Source: Microcaldota archaeon (GTDB lineage Archaea > Micrarchaeota > Micrarchaeia > Anstonellales > Bilamarchaeaceae). Taken from it: a stretch of 64,000 nt of DNA. Below are positions 1,937 through 64,000 of the stretch, one piece after another. Position 1 is the stretch's first letter. Each line of letters begins with the position of its first letter. The position numbers and the translations under genes were made by a program. The stretch is taken from assembly GCA_016932815.1 (NCBI GenBank), contig JAFGCC010000014.1, forward strand, positions 144,129-208,128. Direction: 5' to 3'. The notes under the pieces are model-generated. The model worked only from the letters and a program-made list of their open reading frames with translations. It searched no databases and had not been told where the DNA came from.

Positions 1937-2695
1937 ATGGGGCTTCCTTCGGTATTTAAAAACCTTTTTTACGGTATTAGAAGGATGGGGACGCGCAAGG
2001 CATTTGTGTTTTCGCTTGATTCATTCGTGGCTTTCATACTGAGCGTAGCCGCGCTGTATTCCCTGCTGTTCTTTGCGACCGTTCCTTCGGCATATTATTC
2101 TTCATTGATGCAGGCAAATTACCTTGCAAAGGACACGATGCTCGCCCTTGCAACGAGCCAGGCGGGGAATGTTGGCGAATCATTGTACGGGTGCGACCCC
2201 GGTGCGAGCATGCTCTCGTGCATACTCTCTGACCTGGAAGCGGATTCCTGGGAGATGGGGGGGGATGCGAACGAGGGGGCGGCACGGGACCTAATAGGGG
2301 TAAGCGATGGGAACGAGATTAGGAGTGCGCTTATCCCGGTGCAGTTTGGATACAAGATTGAAACATTGGAATACGCGGAAACGGATGGGGGAGAAATAGA
2401 TTTTGAGAATGCGGCATGGGTTGAGATGTATGATACCGCAAACGACCCCTTGTCTGCGAACAAGAAAGAATACCACAAGCTCAAGGCGGCTACGCACATA
2501 CTCTACTTTGCTTATGAGCATGAGCCTGAAGCTGGGGAGGGTTCCCCGTTCAGGTACGTGAGCTGCGGGGGGGAGCACTCGATTTGCGAATGGCCGGGGG
2601 GCTTTGAATACTCTGAGGATTATGCGGGCGTTGCGCAGCAAGACATTCGCGGGGACGCGGTTGCTTACGTGGTGAGGCTTACTGTGTATATATAG
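1937..2695 (+). CDS. pilin-like/secreted protein with FSLD-type hydrophobic N-terminus
   Basis: Internal ATG of ORF 1667..2695 follows the stop of the upstream gene; MGLPSVFKNLFYGIRRMGTRKAFVFSLDSFVAFILSVAALYSLLFF. Confidence 0.7.
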   Translation: MGLPSVFKNLFYGIRRMGTRKAFVFSLDSFVAFILSVAALYSLLFFATVPSAYYSSLMQANYLAKDTMLALATSQAGNVGESLYGCDPGASMLSCILSDLEADSWEMGGDANEGAARDLIGVSDGNEIRSALIPVQFGYKIETLEYAETDGGEIDFENAAWVEMYDTANDPLSANKKEYHKLKAATHILYFAYEHEPEAGEGSPFRYVSCGGEHSICEWPGGFEYSEDYAGVAQQDIRGDAVAYVVRLTVYI

Positions 2696-2699
2696 AGGT

Positions 2700-4451
2700 A
2701 TGGGAATGGCTGGCAAAAAAGGGTTTTTCTTCGTGATCGTGGCGTTCGTCCTCCTCTCTTACATATTGGCTTCCACTTATGTCTGGGTGCGCGCAATAGA
2801 AATGGAGGAGTCCAGGTATTCTGAGGCGTTTAGGGCGGCTTCTGTGGAGATGCTGATTTCCCAGGTTACCGAAGGGAGGATTGCGGAATTCACCAATATT
2901 TCTTCGCACTATGCGTTATACAGGCTCAACCACCACGCAATATTCCATCCGGTTAGGGTGCCTTCGGGAGTTGATATCCATGCGGGCGGGGAGTTGGATG
3001 GCTCCGAGCTTGCGAACATACGGCTTGCGATGAGGGAACTAATGCTCTATGGGCGGGCATCCGGGGATTACTTTGAGGATGGACAGCCCATAGAATATAC
3101 CGGCGAGGAAAAGCTTACTTATTCGCTTGAGGGCTGGAAAACCCAGCTTAATAGCTCTCTTAGGGCTTCGGGCTTTGAGCTTGAGGAGCTTGAATTCTCT
3201 GAGGAGGATTTCGTTTTCAACAATACGGGCTTCATGAAGTTCAATGTGAGCTTCATGATGGGCATTAAGATAGCGGATACGCTTGCGGGCTCGGCAACCT
3301 CCATTGCGCGCACCTACAACGTTTCAATGGAGCTTAATGCGGAGGGGATGCCGGATGCGTATATTGCGCGCGAATCGGTAAGGCAGCTGCACATTGCCGA
3401 TGATAACACGATTGTTGGAAAGCGCGTGTTCATGGCGCCTTATGCGGATGAGGGATACGAGGCGCTCTGCTCAGGAAGCAGCAGCGGCCCGTGCTATTAC
3501 GTTGATTCTGGAAGCGAGGGGCAAGGATGGTTCTACGGCCCTGTGGTGATGGCGGCGGACTCCGGGGACGTTCCCGGGGGAGCCACCTACAATTACATAC
3601 TAGCGGGGACGTATTCGCAGATAACTTCTGCGGACAACTGGAAGGGCTTTGGGGCATACATAGTAACGAGCGAGCCAGAAGAGGGGCCCGAATGCTCCGA
3701 GCAATTGGAAACTTTCAACGCCCTTGAATACGATGAGGACTGCGAGGACGTTTTCGTGAACAATGTGTATGAGGAGACCGAGCGCCCGTTCGTAGTTTAC
3801 GAGAATTTCGACATTGATGATTTTGGGGGATACGATTCATCTATGGGGGCTGCGGCGCACAAGGTGCTCTTTGTTTCGGAATACTCGGTTGAGGAAGTTG
3901 GCGACGAGCCTGAACTCAAATTGAGGGACGTTGCGATTTACGATATTGAGGGGCTGCGCGATTTTGTCATGTGCGGATATTATATGCCGCGCCCGCAGAG
4001 CCCTTCGTTCCTGCATAGGATGTTTGACTTGCAGGACATGTTTGAGGATTCGGACCCTGCATACAACCGGTGGCCGGAGAATGAATGGGGAATTGAGACT
4101 ACCGCGGCGGGAAGATGGGCGGGGGGAGACCTTGTGTCTTCCTCCTGGGATGACCATAGCCGGCTGGACATAGAGTTCTTCCTGGATACCGGGGACGTCA
4201 ATTCCGATGTGGATGTGGTAAGGGGGATGTTCGGGTGCAAGAACGCGCTCCTTTGCGGAATGGGCTTCGGGGCGGACATTGAGAACGTGGGGCACTTTGC
4301 AATAAGCGACTGGGCAAGGTGGGATAGGCCATCTAGCGGGGAAACCCCAAGCGATGAGATTTACTATATAGACACTGAGGACAGCGACGATGCTGAGGCC
4401 GACAACATAGGTTGTGATAATAATGGGCGCGCAAGCTGCTATGAGAACTAG
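2700..4451 (+). CDS. large surface/pilin-like protein with N-terminal TM
   Basis: MGMAGKKGFFFVIVAFVLLSYILASTYVW then long acidic ectodomain. Confidence 0.75.
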   Translation: MGMAGKKGFFFVIVAFVLLSYILASTYVWVRAIEMEESRYSEAFRAASVEMLISQVTEGRIAEFTNISSHYALYRLNHHAIFHPVRVPSGVDIHAGGELDGSELANIRLAMRELMLYGRASGDYFEDGQPIEYTGEEKLTYSLEGWKTQLNSSLRASGFELEELEFSEEDFVFNNTGFMKFNVSFMMGIKIADTLAGSATSIARTYNVSMELNAEGMPDAYIARESVRQLHIADDNTIVGKRVFMAPYADEGYEALCSGSSSGPCYYVDSGSEGQGWFYGPVVMAADSGDVPGGATYNYILAGTYSQITSADNWKGFGAYIVTSEPEEGPECSEQLETFNALEYDEDCEDVFVNNVYEETERPFVVYENFDIDDFGGYDSSMGAAAHKVLFVSEYSVEEVGDEPELKLRDVAIYDIEGLRDFVMCGYYMPRPQSPSFLHRMFDLQDMFEDSDPAYNRWPENEWGIETTAAGRWAGGDLVSSSWDDHSRLDIEFFLDTGDVNSDVDVVRGMFGCKNALLCGMGFGADIENVGHFAISDWARWDRPSSGETPSDEIYYIDTEDSDDAEADNIGCDNNGRASCYEN

Positions 4452-60132: not shown

Positions 60133-61869
60133 TTATTCCACGGTAACCGATTTTGCGAGGTTGCGCGGCTTGTCTATGTCGCAGTCGCGCAGCGATGCGA
60201 CGTGGTAAGCAAAGAGCTGCAGCGCAACCACGCTCAAAAAGGGATATAGCTCCTCCTGGGTTTGCGGGACGTAGATTACGTTAGTTGCGTGCTGAACGAT
60301 GCTAGAATCGCCTTCCGTTGCAACCGCTATTATCTTGCCTTTTCTTGCCTTGATTTCCTGCATGTTGGAAACGGATTTTTTATAGACCGAATCCTCTGGG
60401 GCGATTGCAATGGTGGGGACTTCGTCGCAGACTAATGCGATTGGCCCGTGCTTCATCTCCCCGGAAGCATATCCCTCTGCGTGTATGTAGGAGATTTCCT
60501 TTAGTTTTAGCGCCCCTTCTAGGGCAATCGGGTAGTTGAAGCCGCGCCCGATGTAGAGGAAATTATAGACCTTGAAGTATTTTTCCGCGATTTTGGAGAT
60601 TTGCCCTTCGGAGTCCAGGACCGCCTGCACCTTCTGCGCAAGCGAATCAAGCGGGTATTGCTGCCCGGAGAATTTCTCTGCAATCTTGTACAATGCGATT
60701 AGCTGGGAGGTGAATGCCTTGGTGGATGCAACCCCTATTTCCGGGCCTGCCCTCGTGTAGATTACCGTGTCGGATTCCCTTGCGATTGTGCTATCCTGCA
60801 CGTTTATTATGCCCAGGGTTTTTGCGCCCTTTTCCTTTGCAAGCCGTAATGCCGCAAGAGTGTCCGCGGTTTCCCCGGACTGCGAAATCGAGATGAACAG
60901 GTCGCCTTCGCCTATTATGGGCGAGGAGTAGCGGAACTCGGAAGCGGGGGCTACTTCAACAGGGATTCCTGCCGCTTTTTCCATTATGTATTTTCCCACA
61001 AGCCCCGCATAGCCTGCTGTTCCGCAGGCGACCATGAATATCTTGTTGGGCTTTTGGAGGGGCGGAATCTGGATTGATAGCGAATCGCGGATTATCTGGG
61101 GCTGTTCATGGATTTCTTTTAGCATGAAATGCGCGTATCCTTGCTTCTGGGCCTGCTCTAAATCCCAGTTTATGCGCATTGGGGGTTTATGGAGTTCCCT
61201 GCCCTCGTTGTTGAATACTTTTACCGAATCCGGGGTTATGATGCCTATCTCAAAATCGTCAAGGTAGATTGCTTCTTTTGTGTATTCTACGAAAGCGGAA
61301 ACGTCCGAGCCTACGAAGTTTTCGTTTTCGCCTATTCCTATTGCAAGGGGCGAGCCGTTCCTTGCCACTGCTATTTCTTCTTTCTCCGCGTGCATTGCGC
61401 ATATTGCGTAGGTCCCATTTAGCTTTTCTATTGTTTTTAGGAGGGCGTCTTTTAGGCTGCCCTTATAGTTCTTCTCCAGGAGGTGGGCGATTACTTCCGA
61501 ATCTGTTTCCGAGCGGAAGCTAGCGTCCGTTAGTTCCTCTTTTAGTTCCAGGTAGTTTTCTATTATGCCATTGTGGACTATTGCGATTTTGCCGGAAGTT
61601 GAGAGGTGGGGGTGGGCGTTGCGCTCTGAGGGCTCGCCGTGGGTTGCCCACCTTGTGTGCGCAAAGCCCAGCTTTCCCGGGAGCGTTGTGAAATTGAGCT
61701 TTTCGCCCACTTCGGAAACCTTCCCGGTTCCTTTTTTAACGTGGAGCTCTCCTTCTGAAAGGGTTGCCATCCCCACAGAATCGTAGCCGCGGTACTCAAG
61801 GTTCCTAATTGATTTTAGGAGTATTTGGGCGGCTTCTTTTCTTCCTATGTATCCTGCTATTCCACACAT
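60133..61869 (-). CDS. glmS: glutamine--fructose-6-phosphate aminotransferase
   Basis: MCGIAGYIGRKEAAQILLKSIRNLEYRGYDSVG ... CGTAGYAGLVGKY ... ISQSGETADTLAALR. Confidence 0.97.
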   Translation of the reverse strand: MCGIAGYIGRKEAAQILLKSIRNLEYRGYDSVGMATLSEGELHVKKGTGKVSEVGEKLNFTTLPGKLGFAHTRWATHGEPSERNAHPHLSTSGKIAIVHNGIIENYLELKEELTDASFRSETDSEVIAHLLEKNYKGSLKDALLKTIEKLNGTYAICAMHAEKEEIAVARNGSPLAIGIGENENFVGSDVSAFVEYTKEAIYLDDFEIGIITPDSVKVFNNEGRELHKPPMRINWDLEQAQKQGYAHFMLKEIHEQPQIIRDSLSIQIPPLQKPNKIFMVACGTAGYAGLVGKYIMEKAAGIPVEVAPASEFRYSSPIIGEGDLFISISQSGETADTLAALRLAKEKGAKTLGIINVQDSTIARESDTVIYTRAGPEIGVASTKAFTSQLIALYKIAEKFSGQQYPLDSLAQKVQAVLDSEGQISKIAEKYFKVYNFLYIGRGFNYPIALEGALKLKEISYIHAEGYASGEMKHGPIALVCDEVPTIAIAPEDSVYKKSVSNMQEIKARKGKIIAVATEGDSSIVQHATNVIYVPQTQEELYPFLSVVALQLFAYHVASLRDCDIDKPRNLAKSVTVE

Positions 61870-62010
61870 GGGCATTCCCTTCTCACAAGTGAATTGATTG
61901 TTCTCCCATTAGGTTTATAACGCATGGGCATGGGCCATTGCAAGCTTGCCTGGGAGGGGAGGGGGGATTTTGCCTGGTCACAGGAGGTGGTAATTTGCGT
62001 GCGTGGACGT

Positions 62011-62068: not shown

Positions 62069-63157
62069 ATGAAAATGGCAACTGCAGACGTAAGAGTAAG
62101 CAGGGGAAATATTGAATCGGCAAGAAGGCTAATTGAAACCGCAAAGAAGTACAAGGAGAGATACTCTGAGCTGGGAGCAAAAAGGATGGGGGATCTTAGC
62201 AGGGGCCAGAAGCCCACAAAGCTGGCGATTATGCCTGCGCACGGCATAAATGAATTCCAGGTGGACGCTACCAAAGAATATAAGCCGGGGCAGATTTTTA
62301 CTGTAACATGCGCGGAGAGCATAAGTTTTGAAGAGGACAGTGTTGCAAAAGGCTCGGTTTTCTATGCGATAGAGCACCTCAAGATAAGGGACATCGAAGT
62401 GCACGGGCCGGGGAAACCGCCTGCATCATCTGGGAGAGCGCTCCAGAAGGAATTCCCGGTATGGTCCGAAATAGCCGCAATGGACAGTGAATGCGGATGG
62501 GGATTGAAACTGGGAACTGCGGGCTCAACTGCAAAGGCAACCTCCCACTATTATTACTATGAGGCGGGCCGCAGCACGGGGGAAGGATGGTTAGTGGATG
62601 AGCGCTACCAGCACGGGGGAGACACCACGGGTTTGGGAAACGCGCTCCTAATGAGCCAGAGCAGGATATCCTCTTCCTCGGTTGGGCACTTCGCAACCGA
62701 AGCGCTCGTAATCGAATGCGCGGATTCGCGCATAATTGGCAGGCAGGTATTTGAGGGGCACGATATCGCGCTCGTTTCCAATGCGGGAAACGTCCTCTCG
62801 CCAATTGCGCTGGATGCGATTGAGGCTGCGGTGAAAGAGGGTGTTCCGGCAATAGTGATTATGGGCCATAGCAACTGTGGGGCGGTTGGCGCTGCAATTG
62901 CGAAAAACACTGAGGCGCCCTTAGCAGAGATTATGCTTGCGGTGCAGACTAACATCGCAGGATGGGAGAATAACGTGCAGACGCTAGTTGAAGTGAGGAA
63001 TGCGTTTGCCTCTGTGGAAATGCTCCAGGGAATAAGGAGGCCTGAAGTTTATCCGGGCAGGGTAGGGGAAGTTGCAAACCTTATCTCCCAGAGGGGAACC
63101 GCAGTCGTTCCGCTCTACCTCGACTTATCAAGCGGGGAAATCGGCGGCGGAATCTGA
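62069..63157 (+). CDS. two-domain beta-carbonic-anhydrase-like protein (degenerate N-domain + metal-site C-domain)
   Basis: C-domain: VIECADSRIIGRQ ... ALVSNAGNVLS ... IVIMGHSNCGAVGAAI; N-domain: LSRGQKPTKLAIMPAHGINEF..YKPGQIFTVTCAESI..GSVFYAIEHLKIRDIEVHGPG. Confidence 0.85.
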   Translation: MKMATADVRVSRGNIESARRLIETAKKYKERYSELGAKRMGDLSRGQKPTKLAIMPAHGINEFQVDATKEYKPGQIFTVTCAESISFEEDSVAKGSVFYAIEHLKIRDIEVHGPGKPPASSGRALQKEFPVWSEIAAMDSECGWGLKLGTAGSTAKATSHYYYYEAGRSTGEGWLVDERYQHGGDTTGLGNALLMSQSRISSSSVGHFATEALVIECADSRIIGRQVFEGHDIALVSNAGNVLSPIALDAIEAAVKEGVPAIVIMGHSNCGAVGAAIAKNTEAPLAEIMLAVQTNIAGWENNVQTLVEVRNAFASVEMLQGIRRPEVYPGRVGEVANLISQRGTAVVPLYLDLSSGEIGGGI

Positions 63158-63178: not shown

Positions 63179-64000
63179 ATGGGGAAACTAATCGCAAAGC
63201 CAAGCCTGAGGGAACAGGTTGAAACCTCGGACCGCCTAATGGGTATTGCACATAAGTACCGCTTCCGGTATGCGGAACTTGGCAGGGAGCGCATAAGCAG
63301 GTTCTGGGAAGGAGGGCAGAGGCCCCGCAAAATCGTTATTTCCCCAGCCCTTGGGCTGAGGGAGTTTGGGGCAAACCCGGTTTCCGGGGACCTGCCCGGG
63401 GACGCATTTACTGTTACCTGCCGCGAAGGCATGACTCTGGATTCGGTTGGGGAAGCGGCGCTTTTCCATGCATTGCACAACCTTGGAGTAAGGAGGCTGG
63501 AGTGCCATGGCAGGGGCGCAGACCGCACGGAGGCGCGGGATTCCACCCTGAGAGCCATGGATTCCTTCCCGGTTTGGGGGCAGATAAAAAAAATAGCGCG
63601 CGAGTGCGGATTGGGCCTTGGATTTAAGCAGGGGAAGAAAACCGTGGGCGTGCATTCGTATTACTATTATTTCCATGATGATTATTTTGGGGAGAAATGG
63701 GCAGTCATAAACGAGGACAATGCACACTCCATAAGAAAGCCCGCAGGGGGCATTGTTGATTCTGTTCCCGATGCGCTGATAATTGAGTGCTCGGATGCGC
63801 GCGTGATGGGGAAGCAAATATTTGAAGGAATTGACATTGCGCTCGTTTCCAATTGGGGCAACGTGCTATCGGAGGTTGCGCTGGATGCGATTGAGGCACT
63901 CGTAAAAGAGGGCTTGCCCGCAGTGGTAATCCTGGGGCACAACCGGTGCGATGCAATCTATGCGGCAATTGAAGGGAGCACCGAAGAGCGCTTTGAGCCA
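63179..64000 (+). CDS. second two-domain beta-carbonic-anhydrase-like paralog, truncated by window end
   Basis: MGKLIAKPSLREQVETSDRLMGIAHKYRFRYAELGRERISRF... IIECSDARVMGKQIFEGIDIALVSNWGNVLSEVALDAIEALVKEGLPAVVILGHNRCDAIYAAI; open at 64000 so not in ORF track. Confidence 0.82.
   Translation, partial: MGKLIAKPSLREQVETSDRLMGIAHKYRFRYAELGRERISRFWEGGQRPRKIVISPALGLREFGANPVSGDLPGDAFTVTCREGMTLDSVGEAALFHALHNLGVRRLECHGRGADRTEARDSTLRAMDSFPVWGQIKKIARECGLGLGFKQGKKTVGVHSYYYYFHDDYFGEKWAVINEDNAHSIRKPAGGIVDSVPDALIIECSDARVMGKQIFEGIDIALVSNWGNVLSEVALDAIEALVKEGLPAVVILGHNRCDAIYAAIEGSTEERFEP

Follow-up and report, generated by a model that had tools for sequence, protein, structure and literature searches.

Here we describe a fused two-domain β-carbonic anhydrase (β-CA), copy A, encoded near the end of the window, the 64,000-nucleotide stretch of a Microcaldota archaeon genome that was analysed (source assembly 1.25 Mb in 25 contigs). 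The copy A ORF (62069..63157, + strand) is intact, begins with an ATG at 62069 and encodes 362 aa, in which a β-CA domain lacking zinc ligands (the dead half) precedes one bearing a zinc site (the live half), an order referred to below as dead-live. On the same strand it is followed by a tandem paralog, copy B (63179..64000, + strand), a single-domain β-CA and aRF1. The window ends inside copy B, whose ORF continues to L004:3384 for 358 aa in full; it is also dead-live and is 43% identical to copy A. The earlier note on this DNA overlooked both the paralog at 63179 and the single-domain β-CA behind it. The divergent neighbour upstream of copy A is a glmS-like gene (60133..61875, − strand), which is found in the equivalent place in L005 and L007 and also adjoins the reverse-order proteins of sister genera. 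There are no carboxysome genes beside copy A, its neighbours being glmS, the single CA and aRF1. The aRF1 gene was the marker by which this small genome was taken as archaeal; an archaeal 16S model had no hit in it, probably because the bin is without the gene.

The proposal in that note that copy A is a fused two-domain β-CA was borne out by profile searches, profile-profile alignment and a structural match. The Pro_CA profile (PF00484) matches the whole protein with an E-value of 3.8e-18 and 66.7 bits against a curated cut-off of 25.7, which places copy A within the β-CA profile family, and the best stretch is the C-half. Searched alone, the C-half gives an E-value of 8.9e-14. The N-half alone is recognised weakly (E = 0.005 over residues 70–113), in the correct register and under the curated cut-off. 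A profile of six N-halves, comprising those of copy A, copy B and the same-genus orthologs (L005–L008), aligns with 40 ordinary β-CAs at 97.1% probability in hhalign. The AlphaFold2 model of copy A, made from six sequences, is of moderate confidence (pLDDT 60.5, pTM 0.66) and shows the β-CA strand-helix pattern twice, along with a long helix at the N-terminus. As a whole, its best PDB match in Foldseek is the Porphyridium tandem β-CA 1ddz, over 483 columns. From this model and the high-confidence model of a reverse-order relative described below, each half of copy A is predicted to have the β-CA fold. The N-half in particular models as a β-CA-like domain and not as a non-CA fold.

The chain begins with a predicted helical arm at residues 4–43 (62078..62197, + strand; AF2 secondary structure). 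In β-CA dimers the N-terminal arm wraps the partner, an arrangement known as arm swapping (PMC3230598). The C-half of copy A is without the usual N-terminal arm. The dead domain follows at residues 44–163 (62198..62557, + strand), with predicted strands at residues 51–56, 76–81, 108–114 and 156–162. By alignment, PAHGI (residues 56–60; 62234..62248, + strand) stands at the place of CxDSR in an active domain, and GPGKPP (residues 113–118; 62405..62422, + strand) at the place of GHxxCG, in agreement with the earlier reading that every N-half zinc ligand has been lost. Between the two domains lies a low-confidence insert or linker (residues 164–208, pLDDT 24–44; 62558..62692, + strand) that is missing from the same-genus orthologs in the alignment and starts inside a run of Tyr residues. 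This run, SHYYYYEAG, had been described as conserved, a description that did not hold: it is matched solely by HSYYYYFHDD of the paralog, and the orthologs are without the whole segment. The predicted strand at residues 156–162 overlaps the start of the run and is probably strand 5 of the dead domain.

The live domain occupies residues 209–362 (62693..63154, + strand), with predicted strands at residues 212–217, 233–238, 261–267 and 345–352. It holds the single set of Cys-His-Cys zinc ligands and the only Asp-Arg dyad in copy A. CADSR (62717..62731, + strand) includes the zinc ligand Cys217 and the dyad Asp219-Arg221, and its C, D and R are invariant in 6/6 fused proteins. GHSNCG (62864..62881, + strand) includes, by alignment, the zinc ligands His267 and Cys270. 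The zinc motifs reported earlier for this half are confirmed as C217-A-D219-S-R221 and G-H267-S-N-C270-G.

In β-CA dimers, each active site combines zinc ligands, Asp and Arg from one subunit with residues lent by the other (PMC3230598, PMC12664589). For Coccomyxa β-CA, the channel wall is made of Asp49, Arg51, Gly107 and Ala108, with others, of one monomer, and Gln38', Phe66', Tyr88', His92' and Leu93' of the second (PMC3230598). In the Candida parapsilosis CA, an inhibitor touches two residues of the opposite chain, Gln72 and Phe121 (PMC12664589). We aligned both halves of the fused proteins with 40 single-domain β-CAs encoded in these genomes, and all 40 contain both residue sets, save one His-to-Tyr change. 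In copy A, the dead half has all five lent residues, against 0/5 in the C-half. Gln47 (codon at 62207..62209, + strand) corresponds to the Gln that the partner lends (Coccomyxa Gln38', pea Gln151; PMC3230598, PMC12664589), and Phe77 (62297..62299, + strand) aligns with the partner-lent Phe (Coccomyxa Phe66', pea Phe179). Tyr99, His103 and Leu104 (62363..62380, + strand) align with Tyr88', His92' and Leu93' (PMC3230598).

Among the dead-live proteins, the dead halves keep 27/30 lent residues and 0/36 zinc-side residues, and the live halves keep 0/30 and 35/36, respectively. The β-CA trait of a zinc site in every domain is therefore absent from these six proteins, and close homologs do not retain the ligands that the N-half of copy A has lost. 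In proteins of the reverse, live-dead order, the dead halves keep 33/35 lent and 3/42 zinc-side residues, and the live halves 4/35 and 42/42. The five lent positions are enriched among 38 conserved columns (p = 8e-5, by a column permutation whose units are columns, not lineages). Other columns that favour the dead half (the Pro of GQxP, an Asp and a Ser) or the live half (the AGN and CGA loops) also fit the partition. In ten more divergent dead halves, scored by eye in an alignment, Gln is present in 10/10, Phe in 10/10 and Tyr in 9/10, and the zinc His and Cys in 0/10. The dead- and live-half profiles score only 0.4% against each other in hhalign, though each matches ordinary CAs.

Each of four other genomes in the genus (G001, G002, G003 and G005) encodes one fused dead-live protein of about 294–313 aa. 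The gene adjoins a single CA, and then aRF1 or glmS where the stretch reaches that far. No zinc ligands are left in the N-halves of these four orthologs. One more genus member, whose genome is 81% complete, gave no match to the fused protein. In the closest ortholog pair, identity is 65% for the dead half versus 61% for the live half. Among the four orthologs dN is 0.26–0.49 (0.26 beside a saturated dS), with synonymous sites near saturation. With conservation equal to that of the live half, and dN low against saturated dS, the dead half is under selection. Decay of the N-half is rejected on the strength of this conservation. A relic with a role in folding alone is highly improbable, and this reading is largely refuted. 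It would suit a half without any zinc ligand that Pro_CA recognises weakly, but genus members are as alike here as in the live half, dN falls well short of dS, and the conserved N-half columns are the functional lent residues.

We consider it likely that copy A is an intramolecular β-CA-type heterodimer with one composite active site. A β-CA gene would have been duplicated and fused, and the two halves would then have degenerated in complementary fashion. The C-half would have retained Cys217, His267, Cys270, the Asp219-Arg221 pair and the AGN and GHxxCGA loops, and the N-half would have shed the zinc set and retained Gln47, Phe77, Tyr99, His103 and Leu104. The halves would pair within one chain like an ordinary β-CA dimer, forming one complete site, not two, with zinc and Asp-Arg from the C-half and the substrate-pocket and gate residues from the N-half. 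We infer this pairing geometry, along with zinc binding, catalysis and a substrate for copy A, which most likely hydrates CO2 reversibly beside the ordinary homodimeric β-CA of the same gene cluster.

An intramolecular heterodimer had already been suggested in the earlier note, and that part is supported. Its view of the dead half as regulatory or structural is probably too narrow: because the residues that reach into the partner's site are exactly those kept, the dead half looks co-catalytic. There is precedent for a regulatory ligand-binding role in cyanobacterial CsoSCA, where the C-terminal domain is without a zinc site, the RuBP pocket overlays the place of that site, and RuBP binding near the defunct site activates the enzyme (PMC11086599). 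The vacated pocket of the copy A dead half would likewise be free to evolve. However, the dead-half residues under selection are those lent to the partner's site, and the vacated zinc-site positions are unconserved between the two domain orders. A mainly regulatory dead half therefore seems improbable.

COS and CS2 hydrolases of the β-CA fold exist, and the live half could be a β-CA-like hydrolase of another small molecule of this kind, or copy B could have changed its substrate. An ordinary β-CA is already encoded next door, and the live-half site of copy B is altered, reading CSDAR, GHNRCD and VSNWGN (Gly to Asp, AGN to WGN). Nevertheless, the zinc-side set of copy A is complete, and its composite site would regain all of the lent residues, making up the full β-CA set. 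Another substrate is accordingly quite unlikely in our view, and we retain CO2 hydration for copy A. The dead half of copy B has changed as well, with Tyr to His and His to Asn, and copy B branches long in both half-trees. These changes make copy B a candidate for impaired activity, and its function may be lost or altered.

The carboxysomal β-CA CsoSCA (structure 2fgy; Sawaya et al. 2006, cited in PMC11086599) also has two β-CA domains per chain and one zinc site per pseudo-dimer, as copy A does by sequence. CsoSCA is live-dead, in contrast to the dead-live proteins of the window's genus, and the live-dead order is shared by the sister genera. CsoSCA also differs in its carboxysomal setting, there being no carboxysome genes by copy A, though the 'non-cso' PF08936 relatives are without them too. 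The CsoSCA profile (PF08936) has no match in copy A or its genome (Pfam scans, E up to 10 or 1) and none in 59 genomes; 14 control genomes were also silent, yet the search does detect a bacterial-genome match. The half-profiles show no significant similarity to a CsoSCA sequence. With neither a PF08936 match nor significant half-profile similarity, membership in the CsoSCA family is rejected, and the archaeal fused proteins appear to resemble CsoSCA in layout without belonging to its family.

The Porphyridium purpureum tandem β-CA (1ddz), the best structural match of both models, likewise has two fused β-CA domains. However, its domains are equivalent and both zinc-competent, forming a dimer with four active sites (PMC3230598), whereas one half of copy A has no zinc site. 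Ordinary homodimeric β-CAs (PF00484) share the fold by profile and model, and the copy A halves jointly hold their full residue set. The difference is that each ordinary subunit holds both residue sets, and copy A splits them between its fused halves. A catalytically dead copy that completes or activates a live one is also seen in trypanosome AdoMetDC with its prozyme (PMC6221367). That pair has another fold and is encoded by separate genes. Activation of AdoMetDC by the prozyme is allosteric and does not act through a shared site.

When the dead-half profile was run against 303 genomes from the phylum, a sister genus proved to encode fused proteins of live-dead order, with a single CA beside the gene and glmS there too in several genomes. 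Searching with a full-length profile brought in more divergent members, from additional genera and from a second family of the same order. The model of a live-dead relative, made from seven sequences, has a pLDDT of 89.9 and a pTM of 0.87, and its PDB matches in Foldseek are 1ddz first and CsoSCA 2fgy second. TM-scores by query length are 0.51–0.55 for these two-domain targets versus about 0.25–0.34 for single-domain CAs, a gap that is expected if both domains superpose together; the rmsd to 1ddz and 2fgy is large, at 7–14 Å.

A phylogeny of both halves, as the earlier note had suggested, groups dead halves with dead and live with live. In trees across both orders, which rest on 50–83 columns, all dead halves fall together with support of 99/92, and the live halves with 94/91. 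The grouping persists without any active-site columns (97/91 and 98/90), which rules it out as an artefact of those columns. That the halves group by type whatever their order makes a single ancient split followed by a change of domain order likely. The dead-live order of the window's genus is probably derived, the live-dead order being the widespread one. The inner halves of two tandem neighbour copies already stand in swapped order, and could have provided the route for such a swap.

The two orders could also reflect two independent fusions of separate live and dead genes. Both orders do exist, and separate ancestral subunits would yield the same dead-with-dead and live-with-live trees. However, no genome among the matches in the 303 phylum genomes has separate live-only and dead-only genes, the fused gene adjoins glmS and a single CA in both orders, and there are tandem copies that could give the swapped order. 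Stand-alone dead subunits were sought among the best dead-half matches (L173–L176), all of which are ordinary CAs. A scan of general genome contigs with the whole of copy A found no relatives, and a scan of genome contigs with the fused alignment found bacterial loci only, which match the C-half and are apparently ordinary CAs. Two independent fusions are the less likely origin, and would leave the composite-site mechanism untouched. A single split and later swap may, more tentatively, belong to an old radiation of obligately composite β-CAs, in which the site was divided once, the order was swapped in the window's genus, and the zinc ligands of one subgroup seem to have been divided as well.

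We found no relevant earlier description of such proteins in archaea in the open-licence papers searched. That two β-CA domains can have one zinc site is already known from CsoSCA. What is new is the residue-level partition of the shared site, which recurs in several genera within one order and exists in both domain orders. The usual evidence for complementary loss after duplication comes from expression or from single enzymes; these proteins let it be followed at the level of individual residues, over 13 half-pairs in two orders, for one active site divided along the dimer interface. The partition yields a clear prediction of the residues that matter in a pseudoenzyme without zinc, and these proteins offer a natural test of the transition from obligate homodimer to obligate heterodimer. 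The layout of one site for two domains is found outside the CsoSCA family as well, and more than one origin for it is probable.

Several divergent relatives were seen alongside. A subgroup of two-domain β-CA-like proteins (L042:1869-3128, − strand; L065:2328-3539, + strand; L181:651-1862 and 1951-3153, + strand; L182:1281-2483, − strand; L184:3753-5111, + strand) keeps GHGGxxxCGAV in the first half, without CxDxR. An invariant C-x-D-[AG]-R lies in the second half, in a loop between strands 1 and 2, and the zinc site is possibly divided between the halves. Three very divergent proteins of 400–516 aa (L061:159-1550, − strand; L062:1131-2681, + strand; L063:915-2123, + strand) carry motifs of the C[AG]xADSRD-like and NCGM kinds towards the N-terminus, and the dead half at their C-terminus keeps Gln, Phe, Tyr, His and Leu (15/15). 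The L062 protein scores above the cut-off of no Pfam family. A single-domain β-CA from a distant genome of the same class (L176:702-1361, − strand) has CSDSM for CSDSR and so is missing the dyad Arg, which may be a sequencing error. In two sister genomes (L055:1347-2669, + strand; L056:1415-2326, + strand), a β-CA domain is preceded by a long, unrelated-looking N-terminal extension of about 170 and 120 aa, respectively. Lastly, the two-domain proteins at L016:11-1306 (− strand) and L072:1295-2626 (− strand) carry C[TP]D[SA]R and GHxxCGACKAAH in their first half, and their second half is dead and contains an insert.
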